The position numbers and the translations under genes are program-made. A stretch of DNA of 20,093 nt from Deltaproteobacteria bacterium (lineage in GTDB: Bacteria > Desulfobacterota > Desulfobulbia > Desulfobulbales > BM004): the NCBI GenBank assembly GCA_020346205.1, contig CP070776.1, forward strand, positions 1 to 20,093, in the 5' to 3' direction. Positions within the stretch are counted from its first letter, which is position 1. Every line of letters begins with the position of its first letter. The notes below the pieces were generated by a model. It ran no database searches. It was not told the origin of the DNA and saw only the letters and a list, made by a program, of their open reading frames with translations. Of the stretch, positions 5,003-16,024 are shown piece after piece.

Positions 5003-5044
5003 TTGACCTAAGTCATTTAAATAGTGGCAAGCTTCAATTATACT
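5003..5044 (+). promoter_or_regulatory. CRP/FNR-type site with class II -10 spacing
   Basis: TTGACCTAAGTCAT (5003-5016) matches the FNR-type consensus TTGAT-N4-ATCAA with a TGAC-N4-GTCA core. A -10-like TATACT lies at 5039-5044, 22 bases further on. This puts the palindrome centre (5009.5) about 41.5 bases before a start near 5051, the classic class II activator geometry. It precedes the DUF1858-like gene at 5075. The regulator could be FNR, DNR/NNR-type or HcpR. Confidence 0.6.
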
Positions 5045-5074
5045 GGCTGCAAATTCCATAAAGGGGTCAGAATA

Positions 5075-5290
5075 ATGCAACTTACAAATGATATAGGGAA
5101 CAGGCCGATCAAGGAGGTCATTGAAGAGCATCCGAAAATAGGTGAGATTTTAAATAAATACGAGATAGGCTGTCTCGAATGCAGCATAGGTACATGCTTT
5201 GTCAAGGACGTGGTTGCGGTTCACGTATTGGGTGATGAAATCGAAGCGATGATTGAAAAAGAGATCAACGAGTACCTTGATGGTTTGTAA
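5075..5290 (+). CDS. DUF1858-like small redox protein, 71 aa
   Basis: The protein follows the DUF1858 pattern: an opening with IGNRPIKEVIEEHP, then EILNKYEIGCLEC, the cysteine motif that in this family usually reads GxxCxxC. The cysteines are Cys33, Cys36 and Cys41, a C-x2-C-x4-C arrangement that could be redox-active or bind a cluster. DUF1858 is known as a hybrid-cluster-protein-associated disulfide domain; stand-alone versions have no proven role. The ATG at 5075 is chosen over an upstream in-frame GTG (5024), because the GTG lies before the predicted transcription start and the added residues are not family-like. Regulation by an FNR/HcpR-type activator is inferred from the upstream palindrome. 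Confidence 0.8.
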   Translation: MQLTNDIGNRPIKEVIEEHPKIGEILNKYEIGCLECSIGTCFVKDVVAVHVLGDEIEAMIEKEINEYLDGL

Positions 5291-5312: not shown

Positions 5313-5957
5313 TTACTCAAACTCCTTCCTGAACTTTTCAAACTCTGACTGCAGGGTTTCAAACTCCTGCCGTAACTTGAGCAGTTCCTCTTCAATTACA
5401 ACGATCTTATCATTTTCCCGCCGTACAACTATGGCGGCCCGTTCAGGCTTTGGAGTTTCCGGTTCCACCATGACATCACCTGAGAGGAGATGGGCATAAC
5501 GAGATTCCTTGCGGCCCGACATCCTCGGCAGCTTGATGACATATCCGGATTCGCCAAGTTCTTCGAGGGTCGACTCCACCTCGGCCAGGTCCGTGAAATG
5601 ATAAACCCTTTCAGTGCGCCCCCGCAGTTCACCGACTGTCTGAGGCCCGCGCAGCAGCAGCACCATGAGCAGGGCTGCCTCCCTTTTCACCATTTTTCTG
5701 GTATCCACGAAAATCTCAGCATATTTAGGTACCCTTGATGATGCGCTCAGCACAACCAGTTGATTTTCCCGCAGACTGTCAAGGGCCCGCACAACAGTTG
5801 TTTCTTCAAGGTCCATAACTGGTTCACGGTTTGATTTCTGATTGCAGGCATTGGTCAGTGAATTGAGTGACAAAGGGTAATAATCCGGCGTGGTCATGCT
5901 TTTCTCCATAAGGCTTCCCAGTACCCTTACTTCGATATCAGTGAGTAAAATATCCAT
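5313..5957 (-). CDS. yceH: YceH family (DUF480/UPF0502) winged-helix protein, 214 aa
   Basis: The opening (MDILLTDIEVRVLGSLMEKS) and the segment YYPLSLNSLTNACNQKSNR are hallmarks of the YceH family, which folds as two tandem winged-helix domains (about residues 1-85 and 90-165). The middle contains the typical LLLRGPQTVGELRGRT motif. From about residue 175 the tail is a charged helix likely to form a coiled coil (LLKLRQEFETLQSEFEKF). The family's function is uncertain; the fold suggests DNA binding. An AAGGAAA ribosome site supports the start. It converges with the DUF1858-like gene, with 22 bases between stops. Length is normal for the family. Confidence 0.93.
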   Translation of the reverse strand: MDILLTDIEVRVLGSLMEKSMTTPDYYPLSLNSLTNACNQKSNREPVMDLEETTVVRALDSLRENQLVVLSASSRVPKYAEIFVDTRKMVKREAALLMVLLLRGPQTVGELRGRTERVYHFTDLAEVESTLEELGESGYVIKLPRMSGRKESRYAHLLSGDVMVEPETPKPERAAIVVRRENDKIVVIEEELLKLRQEFETLQSEFEKFRKEFE

Positions 5958-6101
5958 GCAAATTTCCTTTTGACTTGAAGCGCAGTAATTGCCTGATTTC
6001 TTTTTTAACGGAAAAGGATTATAAAAAAACTATCAATAACAATACAGTAGATTTGTAAAATACTCTTCAATCTTTATCCAATCTTCAGAAAAGAGTCTCC
6101 C

Positions 6102-6263
6102 ATGTGTGCCAAAAAGAAAAAACCTAACGTCAAGGATGCTGTCAGTAACCTTTCCAAGCCTATACCTCTGCCCAAAAAGCTCTCTTTGCTCATAAAAAAT
6201 AACACTTACAAACTGCTGAATTTTAAAAATTGCTGTGGACATCCGGGAGAACCAGGCTGTTGA
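6102..6263 (+). CDS. Small protein ending in CCGHPGEPGC, 53 aa
   Basis: An ATG at 6102 opens a 53-codon frame ending in TGA at 6261. The N-terminal half is very basic (MCAKKKKPNVKD), the middle is amphipathic, and the end is Cys46-Cys-Gly-His-Pro-Gly-Glu-Pro-Gly-Cys55-like, counted here as residues 44-53. I recall similar CCG-x2-G-x-PGC tails on small proteins of related bacteria, but cannot name a family. The cysteine and glycine pattern suggests a metal or redox site (inference). The ribosome site is weak. An 82-codon frame on the opposite strand (6033-6281) has no recognisable feature, and the plus-strand reading is preferred because of the C-terminal motif. Confidence 0.6.
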   Translation: MCAKKKKPNVKDAVSNLSKPIPLPKKLSLLIKNNTYKLLNFKNCCGHPGEPGC

Positions 6264-6277
6264 CAGTCTTAAGTTTA

Positions 6278-6292
6278 ACACCGGTTCGGTGT
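6278..6292. repeat. Short hairpin after the CCGHPGEPGC gene
   Basis: ACACC (6278-6282) pairs with GGTGT (6288-6292) around the loop GGTTC, 15 bases after the stop at 6263. There is no T-run, so a terminator role is only possible. The remaining sequence to 6460 shows no other clear feature. Confidence 0.3.
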
Positions 6293-6460
6293 GCTCAGAG
6301 AGTGACTACACGGCAAATTACCAATTCAACCTCGTAGAGTTCTAAGGACGGATAAAAAAAGCTACTGAAAGCTGCATTTTTGAAGAAAGTGAATAGAATA
6401 TAAAATATTGTTTATCGGTTCTTAAAACCTGTTTTGTCTATACACAAAAAAGGTGTTTTC

Positions 6461-7369
6461 ATGAGATTCTGGATCATTTTATTGGCTTTTTTGCTTTTTT
6501 CAGGCACGGCAATGGCCTGGAATTTCGATAATCACAGTATCCCCATCGATGAGATAAAAGGGGGTGGACCGCCTAAAGACGGTATCCCGGCCCTGGTATC
6601 GCCTAAATATGTTCCAGCCCACAAGGCCCGTTTCATGCGTGACGATGAGCAGGTTATTGGCTTGGCTTATAAGGGAGAGGCCAGAGCCTATCCCCTGCGT
6701 ATCATGTCATGGCATGAACTTGTCAACGACCGTATTGAAGACCTGCCGGTACTGGTCAGCTGGTGACCGCTTGCCTATGCGGGCATAGTCTATGTTCGCC
6801 AGACAGAGGGCAGGGAACTCACCTTCGGAGTCAGTGGACTTCTATACAAAAGTAACCTGTTGATGTACGACCGCCAGACCGAGTCTCTCTGGCTTCAGGT
6901 TAAACGTGAGGCAGTAACCGGACCGCTGACCGGCACCAGGCTCAAAAAATTGCCTTCCACTATCACGACCTGGGAAAAATGGCGTAAGCGTTATCCTGAT
7001 ACAAAGGTCCTGTCACCGAAAACAGGGTATATGCGCGACTATGAAAATGATCCCTATGCTGATTATTATAAAAGCAAAAAAGGACTTTTTTCGTTTCTTA
7101 AGCCCGGTCCGGGGGCTGAAGAAAAAGCCCTGGTTGTCGGCGTGGAAATTGAGGGCCGGACATCTGCCTATCTTTTGGACCAGTTGCGGGCTGACAGGGC
7201 AATTAATGACAAGGTAGGAGAGCAAACTGTTATCATTAAGTATGATGCAGAAACTGATATTGTTTCCGTTGAAGGAGAAAAAGGAGATACATTCGAGCAC
7301 ATGCTGACTTACTGGATGGTCTGGAAGGGGATTTATCCAGACACAAAACTCTATGGGTCAAAATATTAG
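6461..7369 (+). CDS. DUF3179 protein, probable selenoprotein with in-frame TGA at codon 102
   Basis: The ATG at 6461 (AAGGTG ribosome site) starts a Sec signal peptide ending at TAMA (residue 19). The frame then continues to 7369 with a single interruption, TGA at 6764-6766, giving 302 residues if read through. Before it the text reads PLRIMSWHELVNDRIEDLP, and after it FGVSGLLYKS and LLMYDRQTESLW, all typical of DUF3179. In this family the position of the TGA normally holds the first Cys of a CPLC-type motif; here the local sequence is VSW-U-PLAYAG, so the second Cys is Ala90-type replaced (Ala at residue 105). DUF3179 proteins are secreted and of unknown biochemical function. A nonsense mutation is the alternative, but lack of any other lesion and a bSECIS-like hairpin favour selenocysteine. 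First gene of a likely operon with the following three. Confidence 0.8.
6764..6788 (+). promoter_or_regulatory. Candidate bacterial SECIS hairpin with UGA codon
   Basis: Eight bases after the TGA (6764-6766), CTATG (6775-6779) pairs exactly with CATAG (6784-6788) around the loop CGGG (6780-6783). Bacterial SECIS elements lie immediately downstream of the UGA, inside the coding region, and carry a G near the start of a small apical loop; the loop here starts 14 bases after the UGA, at the short end of the usual range. An alternative CCGC/GCGG pairing (6767-6782) competes. Folding prediction was not run. Confidence 0.5.
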
Positions 7370-7425: not shown

Positions 7426-7677
7426 ATGGATCCTGAAAAAAAACTGAAACTGGAAGAAAACGGATATGAGTTTGACAGTGATTTGTTATGTTTCATAAAC
7501 AGGAAAGATGGGAAAATATTTTCAAGTGCCTGGGTCGATGAAAAAAATCTGAACACTATACAAATAACCATTTCCCTACCCCATGCACCGACCACCTGGA
7601 AAGTATTTCTAAACCCGGACCAGCCCCACCTGGAAATGCAGACCACCCTTTATGAAAAGTATGGTAAGATCCCGTAA
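7426..7677 (+). CDS. Hypothetical protein, 83 aa
   Basis: A soluble, charged protein with no signal peptide or membrane segment; family not recognised. It starts MDPEKKLKLEENGYEFDSD and has a central stretch of alternating hydrophobic residues (TIQITISLP) suggesting a small alpha/beta or beta-sheet fold. Only one cysteine (Cys22) is present. An AGGGGGAA ribosome site lies just before the ATG, and the gene sits 56 bases after the DUF3179 gene and 40 bases before the flavoprotein gene on the same strand, so it is probably co-transcribed with them. Confidence 0.7.
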   Translation: MDPEKKLKLEENGYEFDSDLLCFINRKDGKIFSSAWVDEKNLNTIQITISLPHAPTTWKVFLNPDQPHLEMQTTLYEKYGKIP

Positions 7678-12192: not shown

Positions 12193-12363
12193 GAGATGTA
12201 AACCAAGCTCTGGAAAGTTAATGGTGGATTCAGAGAGAAGATGTTCAAAGGCAGGAAACAAAAAAGTACGGTATTCATGAGTTGGGCCAAACTCAGATTT
12301 CAAGAAACTGGTGCTAAAGTTAATAAACTTCAGGTACTAAGAAAATACCTTTAACCAGCACTT

Positions 12364-12588
12364 CTAAGGCATGCCAAGAATTACGCTTACCTTGAAAAGG
12401 TCTTCCGGAAAAAGGTTTCCAGGCACCTCCTCCAAGCCCAGGGCCTCTGCTACAATGAACCTGGCGCATTGCTTACTTCCGCTGCCGCAGAATTTTCTCT
12501 TCAGGTCCTCTCTTTCTTTGGCAGTATGCGCTTTGGGCAATTGATCGTTGAAAAAAGGACACTCATTAATGATTGCACAATTCTTCAT
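12364..12588 (-). CDS. Small four-cysteine protein, 74 aa
   Basis: Four cysteines are spaced Cys4-x5-Cys10-x23-Cys34-x6-Cys41, in the contexts CAIINECPFF and KFCGSGSKQCARF. The same arrangement (a CPFF motif, a LKRKYC motif and a CxRY/F motif) occurs in small or domain-sized proteins of many anaerobes, often attached to signalling proteins; a metal or Fe-S site is likely but unproven. An AGAGGGAAG ribosome site precedes the ATG. A questionable 64-codon frame upstream overlaps its start by ATGA, but shows no supporting feature. The gene converges with the EamA transporter; the 171 bases between hold nothing recognisable. Confidence 0.7.
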   Translation of the reverse strand: MKNCAIINECPFFNDQLPKAHTAKEREDLKRKFCGSGSKQCARFIVAEALGLEEVPGNLFPEDLFKVSVILGMP

Positions 12589-12710
12589 GATCTTCCCTCT
12601 CTGCTCTCCGGCTTGATTGCCTCCTGTTCTGTTTCTTGACCAATACAGGTCAATTTCAGGTTTATCTTGGAAAGGGAAGATATTGATGCTCCCCTTTCAT
12701 GCATTTTTAT

Positions 12711-12764
12711 GGTCTGCAAGTCAGGGGATTTCTGGGTATCTTTCAGGAATGACTCCTGCAGACC
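12711..12764. repeat. Imperfect inverted repeat with long arms
   Basis: GGTCTGCAAGTCA (12711-12723) pairs with TGACTCCTGCAGACC (12750-12764); eight and five base pairs are separated by a 2-base bulge, around a 26-base loop. No T-run follows on either strand. It may be a structured RNA end or a remnant of a mobile or intergenic repeat element. Confidence 0.45.
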
Positions 12765-12912
12765 CCTTATATAATGCAAGAAACAAGCCTGTTGTTAGGA
12801 AAACCGGCAGGAATTATTTAAAATGATATAGATTCCAAGTAGTTGGTATGCATATTGTGTGGCAGTTGAAATGCGCAACACAGTTGCATGATGGGACAAT
12901 AGATTAGAATAA

Positions 12913-12970
12913 TTGACAATATTTGTCAGAGTTTGACCATTTTAAGGACGCCTGGGATTAGTATTGTCAA
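12913..12970. promoter_or_regulatory. Cluster of TTGACAAT palindromic elements
   Basis: TGACAA-TAT-TTGTCA forms a 15-base palindrome at 12914-12928. TTGACAATA (12913-12921) recurs inverted as TATTGTCAA at 12962-12970. Two or three half-sites upstream of the gene at 13101 suggest a regulator-binding region; spacing does not fit FNR (3 rather than 4 central bases). Confidence 0.4.
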
Positions 12971-13100
12971 CCTGGGAATTATTCTTATCTTATTATATAT
13001 AAAGTGAATTAAAAACTATCCGGACGGCTTTATATGTCCGTTGCCAATTGCGAACTTGAAAATACGTATTGAGTCGGCTTCTGCTGACAGGAGGTTTGTC

Positions 13101-13340
13101 ATGGCAAGTAGAGCATACTGTTCAAGCGCAGCTGAGGAATTGGAGTTCTGGAGCAGCAGGCTCCATGAACTGTCCAAGAAAATCGATAGTGTACCTTCTA
13201 TCGATAAATATAGACTGTTGCCCCATATTGAAGAGCTGCATATCCTTATGACAGAGATGGATGATCGTCTCTGTGATATGATGAATGCCTGCTCGGCAGT
13301 TGAAAGCTTTAAAGAGGAGGAAACACGCCTGGAAGCATAA
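13101..13340 (+). CDS. Small helical protein, 79 aa
   Basis: Family not recognised. The protein is almost entirely helical, with two amphipathic helices: about residues 9-30 (AEELEFWSSRLHELSKKID) and 37-62 (PHIEELHILMTEMDDRLCDM), joined by a short SVPSIDKYR turn, suggesting a helical hairpin or coiled coil that dimerises. Cys residues are at 7, 58 and 64. The ATG at 13101 is preceded by a strong AGGAGG ribosome site, which decides this start over an upstream in-frame ATG at 13041. It has its own intrinsic terminator and an elaborate upstream region, so it is probably a monocistronic, regulated small gene. Confidence 0.75.
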   Translation: MASRAYCSSAAEELEFWSSRLHELSKKIDSVPSIDKYRLLPHIEELHILMTEMDDRLCDMMNACSAVESFKEEETRLEA

Positions 13341-13392
13341 CTTAAGATCATAAAATAAATGTAATGGCGCGTATGACGTCATTTGAACAGGG

Positions 13393-13422
13393 AGCCGTGG
13401 TAGACTTAAGCCGCGGCTTTTT
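13393..13422 (+). terminator. Rho-independent terminator
   Basis: AGCCGTGG (13393-13400) pairs with CCGCGGCT (13411-13418), one G-U pair, with loop TAGACTTAAG, followed by TTTTT. It lies 52 bases after the stop of the 79-residue protein gene. Confidence 0.85.
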
Positions 13423-13485
13423 CTTACTTTTTCCCTTCAGTCTTATCCCCTTGCGTAGCAAGCCTTTCTCCTTTAACCTTTAGAA

Positions 13486-14286
13486 ATGACAAAATCTTCT
13501 CTTACTGCACTGGACATCTATAAAAAATTACCGCAAACCAACTGCACCAAGTGCCACCTTCCTTCCTGTCTGGCGTTTGCCGCAGCTATCGTGGCTGGTA
13601 GCAAAAAGCTGCAGGACTGTCCGGATCTCTCACCTGAAAGCAAGGCAGAGCTCTTAACACAGCTTCACAAACCTGACCCCATGGAAATTGAGCAGGCGCT
13701 GTTTGTGGATAAACTGCAGAAGAAAATGGAGACCGTAAACCTGGAGGCGGTTGCTCCGCTTATAGGTGCATTCGTGAAAAACGACAGGATTACCATTAAT
13801 TCTCTTGGAAAGGATTTCACCTTTGATCGCAGAGGTAATATGACCTCGGAATGCCATATTATCTCCTGGGTGCAGGCACCTATGCTCTCATATATCACCT
13901 ATAAGACCCATGCGGATATTACCGGTAACTGGATATCATTCCGGGAGATAAAAGGCGGCATTGAATGGCAGACTCTTTTTGCCAACCGCTGTGAAGAACC
14001 GCTTCGAAGACTTGCAGATGAAAATCCAGGCCTGCTCAATGATCTCATCGACCTGTTCATGGGTGAAACCATTGACTGGTATGATGCGGATATAGCTCTG
14101 CTCCTCCATCCTCTGCCCAAATTCCCCATCCTAATTTGCTACCAGGCCCCGGAAGATGACCTTGAGTCGAAGCTCACCATCTTTTTTGATGAATGCTGCG
14201 GCATAAACCTGCACATCAAATCCATCTTTACCCTCTGTTACGGTTTGGTGCAGATGTTCACCAAGATTGCTGAGCATCACCTGTAA
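13486..14286 (+). CDS. Fe-S (PF04060-type) plus DUF3786 protein, 266 aa
   Basis: The N-terminus is a four-Cys [4Fe-4S] domain of the kind found in the corrinoid/Fe-S protein and RnfB: Cys20-x2-Cys23-x4-Cys28-x16-Cys45, in TNCTKCHLPSCLAFAAAI. Residues about 70-260 match DUF3786, including the segments ITINSLGKDFTFD, YKTHADITGNWISFREIKGG and LLLHPLPKFPILICYQAPED. This combination is common in anaerobes with corrinoid or acetyl-CoA pathway proteins, but its function is not established. The protein is soluble, with no signal peptide. The ribosome site before the ATG is weak. It follows the terminator of the small helical gene and converges with the cupin gene. Confidence 0.85.
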   Translation: MTKSSLTALDIYKKLPQTNCTKCHLPSCLAFAAAIVAGSKKLQDCPDLSPESKAELLTQLHKPDPMEIEQALFVDKLQKKMETVNLEAVAPLIGAFVKNDRITINSLGKDFTFDRRGNMTSECHIISWVQAPMLSYITYKTHADITGNWISFREIKGGIEWQTLFANRCEEPLRRLADENPGLLNDLIDLFMGETIDWYDADIALLLHPLPKFPILICYQAPEDDLESKLTIFFDECCGINLHIKSIFTLCYGLVQMFTKIAEHHL

Positions 14287-14320
14287 GGGTAGTGTTGGAA
14301 CACTTCATTTCTCTCCCTTA
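14284..14320. terminator. Nested hairpin between convergent genes
   Basis: The outer arms TAAGGG (14284-14289) and CCCTTA (14315-14320) enclose the inner hairpin AGTGTT/AACACT (14291-14304). It lies at the meeting point of the DUF3786 and cupin genes and may act as a bidirectional transcript end, but there is no clear T-run. Confidence 0.3.
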
Positions 14321-14326
14321 GGGTAA

Positions 14327-14671
14327 TTACACCAGGGGCGGGCTGTGATGCACAAAGAGCCGTAGGGGCCCTTCCCCTGTGTTGCGGGTGCCATGTTCCC
14401 CCTGTGCCGGTATAAAGAGGTAATCACCGGGTTCGATCGGCTGCCAGCTGCCATTGACATAGGTCTCTCCATGCCCCTGGACTACAAAGACAGAATCTGC
14501 CTGTTCCTCATGTGTATGGATCGGGGTTTCTGAACCGGGGGCGATTTCAATCAGGCAGACACTGGCCATGTTGGTTTCCTTGCCGGTTATAAATATCGCG
14601 GCCTTGACATTGTCGAACGTAGGATGCTTGGTAAAAATCATTTCCCGCTGGGGATAAAATTTTGTCTCCAT
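14327..14671 (-). CDS. Single-domain cupin, 114 aa
   Basis: A small beta-barrel protein with both cupin motifs. Motif 1 gives His52 and His54 (PIHTHEE), with Asp59 at the place of the usual Glu, before Gly66. Motif 2 gives PGDYLFIP and His93 (QGEHGTRN). Two histidines, one acid and one more histidine suggest a bound divalent metal. Single-domain cupins include dioxygenases, isomerases and binding proteins, so the substrate is unknown. An AAGGAG ribosome site precedes the ATG. A minus-strand promoter is visible at 14742-14771, divergent from the next gene. Confidence 0.88.
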   Translation of the reverse strand: METKFYPQREMIFTKHPTFDNVKAAIFITGKETNMASVCLIEIAPGSETPIHTHEEQADSVFVVQGHGETYVNGSWQPIEPGDYLFIPAQGEHGTRNTGEGPLRLFVHHSPPLV

Positions 14672-14741
14672 GGCTTACTCCTTTTCCCAGAATTTTGCCG
14701 AAAGCAGCCTGTCGTATGAATATGATAAGAATTGTGTATAA

Positions 14742-14771
14742 ATTATAACAGGGAAAGGAGATTTTTTACAA
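14742..14771 (-). promoter_or_regulatory. Sigma70-like promoter of the cupin gene
   Basis: On the minus strand TTGTAA (14771-14766) and TATAAT (14747-14742) are separated by 18 bases. The -10 is a perfect match and the -35 matches at four of six positions. It is 71 bases upstream of the cupin ATG. Confidence 0.5.
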
Positions 14772-14791
14772 AGATTTTAGTCCTTCACCTT

Positions 14792-14820
14792 TTGACCTTC
14801 ATCCTCATAATGCTTATAAT
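14792..14820 (+). promoter_or_regulatory. Near-consensus sigma70 promoter
   Basis: TTGACC (14792-14797) and TATAAT (14815-14820) are separated by exactly 17 bases, close to the ideal housekeeping promoter, with 33 bases between -10 and the ATG at 14854. It should give strong expression of the following gene. Confidence 0.75.
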
Positions 14821-14853
14821 TTATTTTTGTAAAAAGCATCAGCAGGAGTTGGA

Positions 14854-15246
14854 ATGATGCCTAGTGTATCAGCATGCTGGTTGGATTTATTAGTTGATAG
14901 TGAAGCAAAACTTATCGGTTTTGCTGCTTCTGTCCTACAAATCTCCGAATACGAGCTGTTCCGAATAGCCCACGAGAATTGGTTTAACCGTCCGATTTCA
15001 GAAAGCAGGCTCGATTACCTGTTCAAGGATTACCTTGGAAGTAGCGACGCACCTTTCTGGGTCAATGATTTTGCCAGGAAAGTCCATGAGAAATTCAAGG
15101 CCGGTGAACTCAATTATAAGGAATATGGGATCAAACGACGGGTCTGTGACCGCAGAACAAGGATAAAAGGCTGGATTATCATTACCTTCCTGATAATACT
15201 TCTGTCAATTTACAGCTACGTGATCACCCAGTACCCTTCTTACTGA
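14854..15246 (+). CDS. Unknown protein with C-terminal membrane anchor, 130 aa
   Basis: Family not recognised. Residues 10-85 are helical and contain the aromatic-rich segments AHENWFNRPISES and APFWVNDFARKV. A basic cluster (IKRRVCDRRTRIKG, residues 93-106) precedes a single hydrophobic segment (about 107-125) and a short tail, so it is probably a tail-anchored inner-membrane protein with its N-terminal domain in the cytoplasm (positive-inside rule). An AGGAG site lies 7-10 bases before ATGATG, so either Met could start. It is driven by a near-consensus promoter, and its stop abuts that of the lipoprotein gene on the other strand. Confidence 0.75.
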   Translation: MMPSVSACWLDLLVDSEAKLIGFAASVLQISEYELFRIAHENWFNRPISESRLDYLFKDYLGSSDAPFWVNDFARKVHEKFKAGELNYKEYGIKRRVCDRRTRIKGWIIITFLIILLSIYSYVITQYPSY

Positions 15247-15247
15247 T

Positions 15248-15445
15248 TTAATCGTTATCCACAAGACAACTGTCATCCTGCAGGTTTTGATCAAACCTGA
15301 ACTGCAAAAGCCCTTTCAGCGGTTTTTGTATGCCATCCTTGGAGTTGCCTCCACTTCCTCCTCCGCACGAGGATACAAGCATGATACAAGACAGGAAAGC
15401 AAAGAAAAGACCGCACCAATACTTAATTTTTGAGTGAAAGTACAT
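15248..15445 (-). CDS. Probable small lipoprotein, 65 aa
   Basis: The N-terminus is basic (residues 1-9), then hydrophobic (WCGLFFAFLSCIMLV), then a lipobox-like VSSC with Cys27, followed by GGGSGG. This is the pattern of a lipoprotein signal peptide with a flexible glycine linker. The mature part is under 40 residues (QKPLKGLLQFRFDQN), unusually short; the gene may be a small lipoprotein or a remnant of a larger one. No clear ribosome site is present. The stop lies one base from that of the convergent plus-strand gene. Confidence 0.5.
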   Translation of the reverse strand: MYFHSKIKYWCGLFFAFLSCIMLVSSCGGGSGGNSKDGIQKPLKGLLQFRFDQNLQDDSCLVDND

Positions 15446-15552
15446 GGTGTATTATTTAAGCATTATGTTTTTATTTGCGTCCAGTAATTTGTAAATAAGT
15501 AAAACGTCTATATTTGATAAATGCTTGAAAATATAAATGAAATGTAGATAAT

Positions 15553-15582
15553 AAAAAAGGTTACAGTTTGTAAACTGTAACC
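15553..15582 (-). terminator. Rho-independent terminator of the 46-residue gene
   Basis: GGTTACAGTTT (15559-15569) and AAACTGTAACC (15572-15582) form an 11-bp perfect stem with a 2-base loop. On the minus strand it is followed by TTTTTT (15558-15553). It lies 58 bases after the stop at 15641, showing that this short gene is a transcribed unit. The interval 15583-15640 has no other feature. Confidence 0.85.
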
Positions 15583-15640
15583 CTGGTTGATTCTTATTAC
15601 TTAAATATTTCAACAACGTTGGATTGCACAAGTACTTATA

Positions 15641-15781
15641 TTACAGCAGGAATAGCATGAGCAGGAGTCCGGCTCCAAACCAAAGTCCAACCGTGGCTGC
15701 CACTCCAAACAGGATAGATAAGATTAAGTCTGAGGCACTCCATTGAAAATCTGTATGTTTATCTTGTGTTATAGCTGCCAT
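15641..15781 (-). CDS. 46-residue single-span membrane peptide, Fur-box controlled
   Basis: An ATG at 15781 with an AGAGGTGAG ribosome site opens a 46-codon frame ending in TAA. Residues 1-17 are polar (MAAITQDKHTDFQWS) and residues 19-46 form one long hydrophobic stretch (LILSILFGVAATVGLWFGAG then LLLMLFLL), long enough for one, possibly two short, membrane passes. No family is recognised. The combination of ribosome site, dedicated terminator and upstream Fur-like box makes it a convincing small gene despite its size. Iron-regulated small membrane peptides often accompany iron uptake systems, but no such system is next to it, so the role is open. Confidence 0.75.
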   Translation of the reverse strand: MAAITQDKHTDFQWSASDLILSILFGVAATVGLWFGAGLLLMLFLL

Positions 15782-15863
15782 GATACTCACCTCTTATACA
15801 AAGTTTAGCAATATGCCGGGCAGTCACTTTAGTAAAAGCCACTCACTGATTATTCTTCTTAAA

Positions 15864-15878
15864 TAATAATCATTATCA
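15864..15878 (-). promoter_or_regulatory. Fur-like box
   Basis: On the minus strand the site reads TGATAAT-G-ATTATTA, 14 of 15 matches to the 7-1-7 Fur consensus (TGATAAT-N-ATTATCA). An overlapping AATAATC/GATTATT inverted pair follows toward the gene. It lies about 83 bases upstream of the 46-residue gene's ATG. The rest of 15879-16024 is AT-rich with no clear feature. Confidence 0.7.
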
Positions 15879-16024
15879 GAAAAATATGCCAGCAATACTA
15901 CAATGAGTGAAAAAGAGATGATAATGTATTAAAATCAACAAGTTACTAGTTTCTATACACGACAAGACATAAACTAATCCCTGGGGTTAAGTAATAGCTT
16001 TACTGTTTTGTGGCGTTAATACTT

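Follow-up and report, generated by a model that had tools for sequence, protein, structure and literature searches.

A predicted selenocysteine at the conserved cysteine site of a cysteine-free DUF3179 protein

The window analysed here is the first 20,093 nucleotides of contig CP070776.1 (assembly GCA_020346205.1, Deltaproteobacteria bacterium), and our subject is a DUF3179 gene within it whose reading frame contains one TGA. From comparison with related loci we consider it very probable (about 93%) that this UGA is read as selenocysteine (Sec) in a working selenoprotein gene. An earlier note, made from the sequence of the window alone, had proposed Sec at this conserved cysteine, and the proposal is supported by conservation of the TGA, by a covarying hairpin common to the TGA forms and by the presence of SelA and SelB in relatives. 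The gene and the codon are as follows.

6461..7369, plus strand: predicted DUF3179 selenoprotein gene encoding 302 residues, Sec102 included, and ending in TAG; lone in-frame TGA, PF11376 match
6764..6766, plus strand: candidate UGA-as-Sec codon (Sec102), in the first conserved Cys column of the family

A single TGA in the conserved cysteine column

The frame begins with ATG at 6461 and its TAG stop ends at 7369. The TGA at 6764-6766 is codon 102 and the frame has no other internal stop, so the exact coordinates bear out the initial description of a single TGA with no other lesion. The product matches PF11376 (DUF3179) over residues 39-269 with an E-value of 5e-85 and 285.9 bits, against a Pfam cut-off of 27, and the halves on either side of the TGA each exceed this cut-off on their own. 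Because these halves match the profile in series (positions 1-64 upstream and 66-234 downstream), the TGA occupies one family column, that of the first Cys of the CPLC motif, which is nearly invariant (at least 90% conserved among 60 aligned homologues). The serial halves and the homologue alignment thus uphold the placement of the TGA at a conserved first Cys between family-like flanks. The accompanying picture of a CPLC motif with the first Cys alone replaced has to be amended, as the window motif is U-P-L-A, with Ala (GCC) at +3 where the second Cys is expected. The CPLC pair typical of most DUF3179 members is thus absent from the window protein, which contains no Cys at all; the Pfam score is independent of the pair. 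No NCBIfam model matches the window DUF3179 protein. The antisense strand carries one stop and four further TGA. TGA is not simply reassigned, because it terminates 4 of the 17 window genes counted.

TGA and cysteine codons among relatives

A first survey, restricted to one genome per species, covered 76 DUF3179 loci (L numbers denote loci and G numbers genomes), of which 20 have TGA at this column and 56 have TGC or TGT. The 20 comprise the nearest six (L001-L006), L027 from Acidobacteria and 13 loci from Chloroflexi/Dehalococcoidia. Searches by class and phylum added to these. Among 257 genomes of the class to which L002's genome belongs, 9 gave a match at E<=1e-60 and 6 of these carry TGA; among 277 of the class of L004's genome, 20 matched at E<=1e-50 and all 20 carry TGA. 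A sample of 200 genomes from the class of L027's genome gave 18 matches in 16 genomes at E<=1e-50, with TGA in 6 matches, and among 395 sampled from the phylum of L002's genome, 21 matched at E<=1e-60 and TGA was present in 17. These class and phylum sets overlap, and distinct loci were counted after repeats had been dropped. The alignment of homologues at the TGA column, suggested at the outset as a check, thereby finds TGA in 57 distinct loci and Cys (TGC/TGT) in 72.

Of 15 relatives retrieved from the protein collection, 11 are stored as fragments of 168-199 residues that start after the UGA and are unnamed or hypothetical. The family is large, with at least 7181 DUF3179 proteins at E<=1e-3 among the best 8000 candidates scored. 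Plasmid records yielded distant DUF3179 relatives alone (27 records, all below 60% identity). In L113 (Thiothrix subterranea plasmid, 5637-6915), the DUF3179 gene adjoins a gene annotated "GDCCVxC domain-containing (seleno)protein", and thioredoxin-domain and DUF4395 genes are also among its neighbours.

A hairpin common to the TGA forms

6780..6798, plus strand: candidate bacterial selenocysteine insertion sequence (SECIS) hairpin, stem 6780-6786 with 6792-6798, apical loop 6787-6791 (AGUCU)

The hairpin starts 13 bases downstream of the UGA, and its stem is common to the TGA forms of relatives and covaries. We scored a fixed stem of 7 pairs, bases 17-23 with 29-35 numbered from the T of TGA. 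Of the 28 TGA forms that come from L002's phylum and from Acidobacteria, 26 make six or seven of the pairs, against 0 of 59 Cys forms, and all 13 Chloroflexi TGA forms make 6/6 pairs one base off this register, again against 0 of 59. The fixed stems were picked once folds had been inspected, and a later batch is the fairer test: in L002's phylum 9 of 11 TGA forms reach 6/7 pairs and the other two form the shifted stem, while none of 15 Cys forms reaches 6 pairs. Six Acidobacteria TGA loci of that batch (one a repeat of L027) reach just 5/7; L027 folds into a longer stem with a bulge.

Across a 28-row alignment, 93.9% of stem cells pair, 8 cells show two-sided change and covariation scores 0.263; all three values exceed those of all 500 shuffles and of every slid register. 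RNAalifold alone predicts just 4 pairs, 19-33 to 22-30. The mean folding z is -1.14 for 41 TGA forms (8 below p 0.05) and -0.01 for 59 Cys forms (4 below p 0.05), a difference whose Mann-Whitney p of 1.3e-6 is made too low by the relatedness of the sequences. When the register is left free, the mean longest stem is 6.6 pairs in TGA forms of L002's phylum and Acidobacteria, 5.0 in Chloroflexi TGA forms and 4.2 in Cys forms.

A G and a U of the loop are invariant in the 28 rows, but these two bases also open a Val codon; a conserved apical-loop G is described as a mark of bacterial SECIS elements (PMC2398784). A SECIS model has its sole window match at 6764; it is weak on the Chloroflexi forms (best E 0.051) and gives chance-level matches elsewhere as well. 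Rfam has no match within the window. Outside the TGA forms, L149 (a Cys form) reaches 5/7 stem pairs, the same as its Sec sister L164, and its stem is perhaps a leftover SECIS.

Selenocysteine machinery in relatives

SelB, scored against a curated cut-off, was found in 20/20 genomes of the first-survey TGA loci and in 33/35 of a second TGA-form set (53/55 combined), compared with 16 of the 46 Cys-form genomes that were searched (the first survey included 56 Cys loci). SelA was present in 20/20 TGA-form genomes, the only set searched for it. Among 20 TGA genomes, 17 have a tRNA-Sec of at least 60 bits, as do 4 of the 16 Cys genomes searched; the three TGA genomes in which it fell below the cut-off are G314 and the nearest two, G001 and G002. 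The latter two carry SelA and SelB and look incomplete, at 1.6 and 2.4 Mb.

Several observations weigh against reading the codon as Sec. The evidence on sel genes comes from relatives' genomes rather than the window organism's own, the tRNA-Sec candidates of G001 and G002 are called tRNA-Ser by ARAGORN, and SelB is missed in two TGA-form genomes, G381 (1.4 Mb) and G609. Folded alone, the window hairpin does not stand out from shuffled sequence (z -0.2 to -1.0), nor does it have excess stability over synonymous recodings (z -0.30). The earlier note's suggested SECIS prediction is upheld for the stem that the TGA forms have in common, with its covariation, and not for the window hairpin taken alone, which is unremarkable. 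The free-register scan separates the groups poorly, since stems of at least 6 pairs also occur in 13 of the 59 Cys forms. Finally, two-sided change is confined to 2 pairs, a number reached by 171 of 500 shuffles, and the 6 further pair types are reached by 201 of 500.

A predicted lone selenocysteine and its possible chemistry

In the reading that we favour, SelB bound to the hairpin past the UGA would deliver Sec-tRNA(Sec) to codon 102, and a full-length, exported DUF3179 protein would result with Sec in place of the conserved Cys. Two further features bear on this product.

6461..6517, plus strand: probable signal peptide, MRFWIILLAFLLFSGTAMA, a hydrophobic run with A-M-A before W, judged by eye; helix 2-16 in the model
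6713..6715, plus strand: His85, nearly invariant (column at least 90% conserved, 60 homologues), preceding the Sec strand

The putative signal peptide, placed by the usual cleavage rule (A-M-A before W), suggests that the product is probably exported.

At +3, the 57 TGA forms divide into 22 with Ala, 18 with Cys, 10 with Thr and 7 with Ser; of the 72 Cys forms, 68 have Cys there, 3 Thr and 1 Asn. The mature part, taken to run from 78 residues ahead of Sec as far as the stop (in L170 and L175 only to an extra stop), is Cys-free in 39/39 TGA forms whose +3 residue is not Cys, and in 29/29 UxxA/S Sec forms. A tree of 58 hand-chosen rows, with Chloroflexi left out, places the UxxA/S forms in a single clade of 31 rows (support 100/96). 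The CxxA proteins P0004 and P0012 are nested inside it, within a set of seven (100/99). Elsewhere in the tree L149 (CxxC, TGC) is sister to L164 (UxxC, TGA), both in genome G636. Exchange between Sec and Cys requires no fewer than 5 changes in these 58 rows, and no fewer than 4 on a 106-row tree from which the short row L076 was dropped; loss of the +3 Cys takes only 2 changes in the 58 rows, so that this loss appears to be old rather than the sum of many independent events.

The main mechanistic clue is that residue 102 is kept as Sec or Cys while its +3 partner can be lost, which points to a one-chalcogen active site. Because position 102 stays Sec or Cys and the partner is often lost, Sec102 is probably catalytic. 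An internal selenenyl-sulfide is impossible, as the mature protein is Cys-free; the selenol would instead act as a one-chalcogen site and be regenerated by an external thiol or an envelope electron donor, with His85 as a possible partner. Our best guess on the chemistry, to which we give slightly less than even odds, is an exported one-Sec redox enzyme.

An unlikely alternative for the chemistry is that Sec is inserted but that residue 102 and His85 are metal ligands in a Rieske-like beta fold instead of Sec102 being a redox nucleophile. Rieske iron-sulfur domains bind through two Cys and two His in CxH and CxxH motifs, and the window protein has no Cys. Homology to Rieske proteins was pursued as a structural lead only and set aside, since profile comparison gave no support (hhalign score 15.0 against up to 18.9 for column shuffles). 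Foldseek of the DUF3179 model against the PDB gave no match at E<=0.001, and a sequence search of PDB chains none at E<=1.

Selection downstream of the TGA

The codons downstream of the TGA are under purifying selection. By the Nei-Gojobori method, over stretches of 78 codons before and 105 after the TGA, the ratio of nonsynonymous to synonymous change (dN/dS) falls from 0.093 upstream to 0.057 downstream when the window is compared with L001, and from 0.092 to 0.062 with L002; in three more distant relatives synonymous change downstream is saturated. These values bear on whether the UGA is a true stop, with a truncated product of 101 residues, or a regulated mixture, as the functional form. 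Sec insertion competes with termination, and UGA serves as a stop elsewhere in the window. However, selection after the TGA is at least as strong as before it and most of the DUF3179 domain is encoded there, which makes this explanation very improbable. Equally hard to credit is a pseudogene or sequencing error, the TGA having arisen from a Cys codon by nonsense mutation: TGA is one base away from TGC/TGT and a few related loci bear extra stops (L170, L175), but the identical TGA is retained in 57 distinct loci, which refutes decay for the group, and dN/dS downstream is about 0.06.

The two loci with extra stops are of interest in themselves. L170, a UxxS form, has a second in-frame TGA 71 codons past the first, beside a conserved Trp (TTWKUWKK), which may reflect an error in sequencing, decay of the gene or another Sec. 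L175 (genome G1121), a UxxT form, has TAG at the invariant Gln146 column, 44 codons past the TGA, and its frame is open beyond. PylS exceeded its cut-off in one of eight genomes tested, L175's own. After the TAG, nonsynonymous difference (pN) is 0.143 to L173 and 0.153 to L174, similar to the 0.160 between L173 and L174, but is higher to L171 and L083 (0.221 and 0.289). L175 may carry both Sec and pyrrolysine, or the gene may be decaying; its altered Asp137, otherwise invariant, and the restriction of the dual-residue case to a single gene count against the former, as does the lack of a DUF3179 match in the sole other genome searched from L175's family.

Relation to described selenoproteins

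The earlier note left open whether DUF3179 would be new as a selenoprotein family. It is already listed as a predicted one, with motif UxxC/T, in the reviews PMC9312934 and PMC13188914, both listings citing the 2007 Olavius symbiont paper of Zhang and Gladyshev. The window protein is a new member of this listed family. It shares PF11376 and Sec at the conserved CPLC site with the published members and differs from their UxxC/T in being UxxA, with Ala at +3 and no Cys. UxxA/S is not in the DUF3179 table rows of either paper, and UxxA has 0 occurrences in the main text of PMC13188914, the one text searched for it. PMC9312934 counts a differing Sec motif within one domain as a separate subfamily; the same criterion would make UxxA/S a new subfamily, though the step is a small one.

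The UxxT forms (L082-L084, L086 and L171-L175, from L002's class and phylum) resemble the window gene in the TGA column, the stem and the Cys-free mature part, but have Thr at +3 and form their own clade. The UxxC forms of Chloroflexi and Acidobacteria likewise have TGA at the column and a hairpin downstream, with SelB and SelA present where searched, G609 excepted; they differ in retaining the +3 Cys and in a stem that is shifted by one base (Chloroflexi) or bulged (Acidobacteria). The Chloroflexi/Dehalococcoidia UxxC Sec loci (L056-L059, L061-L064, L066, L067, L069, L070 and L074; L060 excluded) constitute a second large Sec DUF3179 group, in genomes with SelB and SelA. A literature search for selenoproteins in SAR202 gave no match.

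Neighbouring genes

L001 and L002 are the only loci where genes for DUF1858-like, DUF480, old yellow enzyme (OYE) flavoenzyme and NnrU proteins recur beside the DUF3179 gene. When neighbours up to 4.5 kb away were clustered, nothing further of note emerged, but many loci have only about 1.5 kb of flank. The window encodes at 7426-7677 an orphan that matches nothing in Pfam or NCBIfam; it has 83 residues, as do all of its 18 homologues; in L002 it also lies between the DUF3179 and OYE genes. The small protein at 5024-5290 has a weak, sub-cut-off match to the hybrid-cluster-associated redox disulfide domain (DUF1858-like) and is also found upstream in L001 and L002. Among the read-through open reading frames of 12200-16020, the sole stretch listed, no further selenoprotein candidates were called.

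Implications

The annotation of relatives can be corrected, since their stored fragments begin after the UGA, and attention is drawn to residue 102 as the key position in a large family without an assigned function. We tentatively regard the UxxA/S forms as an undescribed lone-Sec subfamily, spread through much of a phylum, that has lost the partner Cys, become Cys-free and kept the UGA. The natural Sec/Cys swaps in close relatives (P0004 and P0012; L149 beside L164) would offer a direct test of selenium's contribution. If the proposal is true, DUF3179 would work as a one-chalcogen enzyme rather than as a CxxC thiol exchanger.
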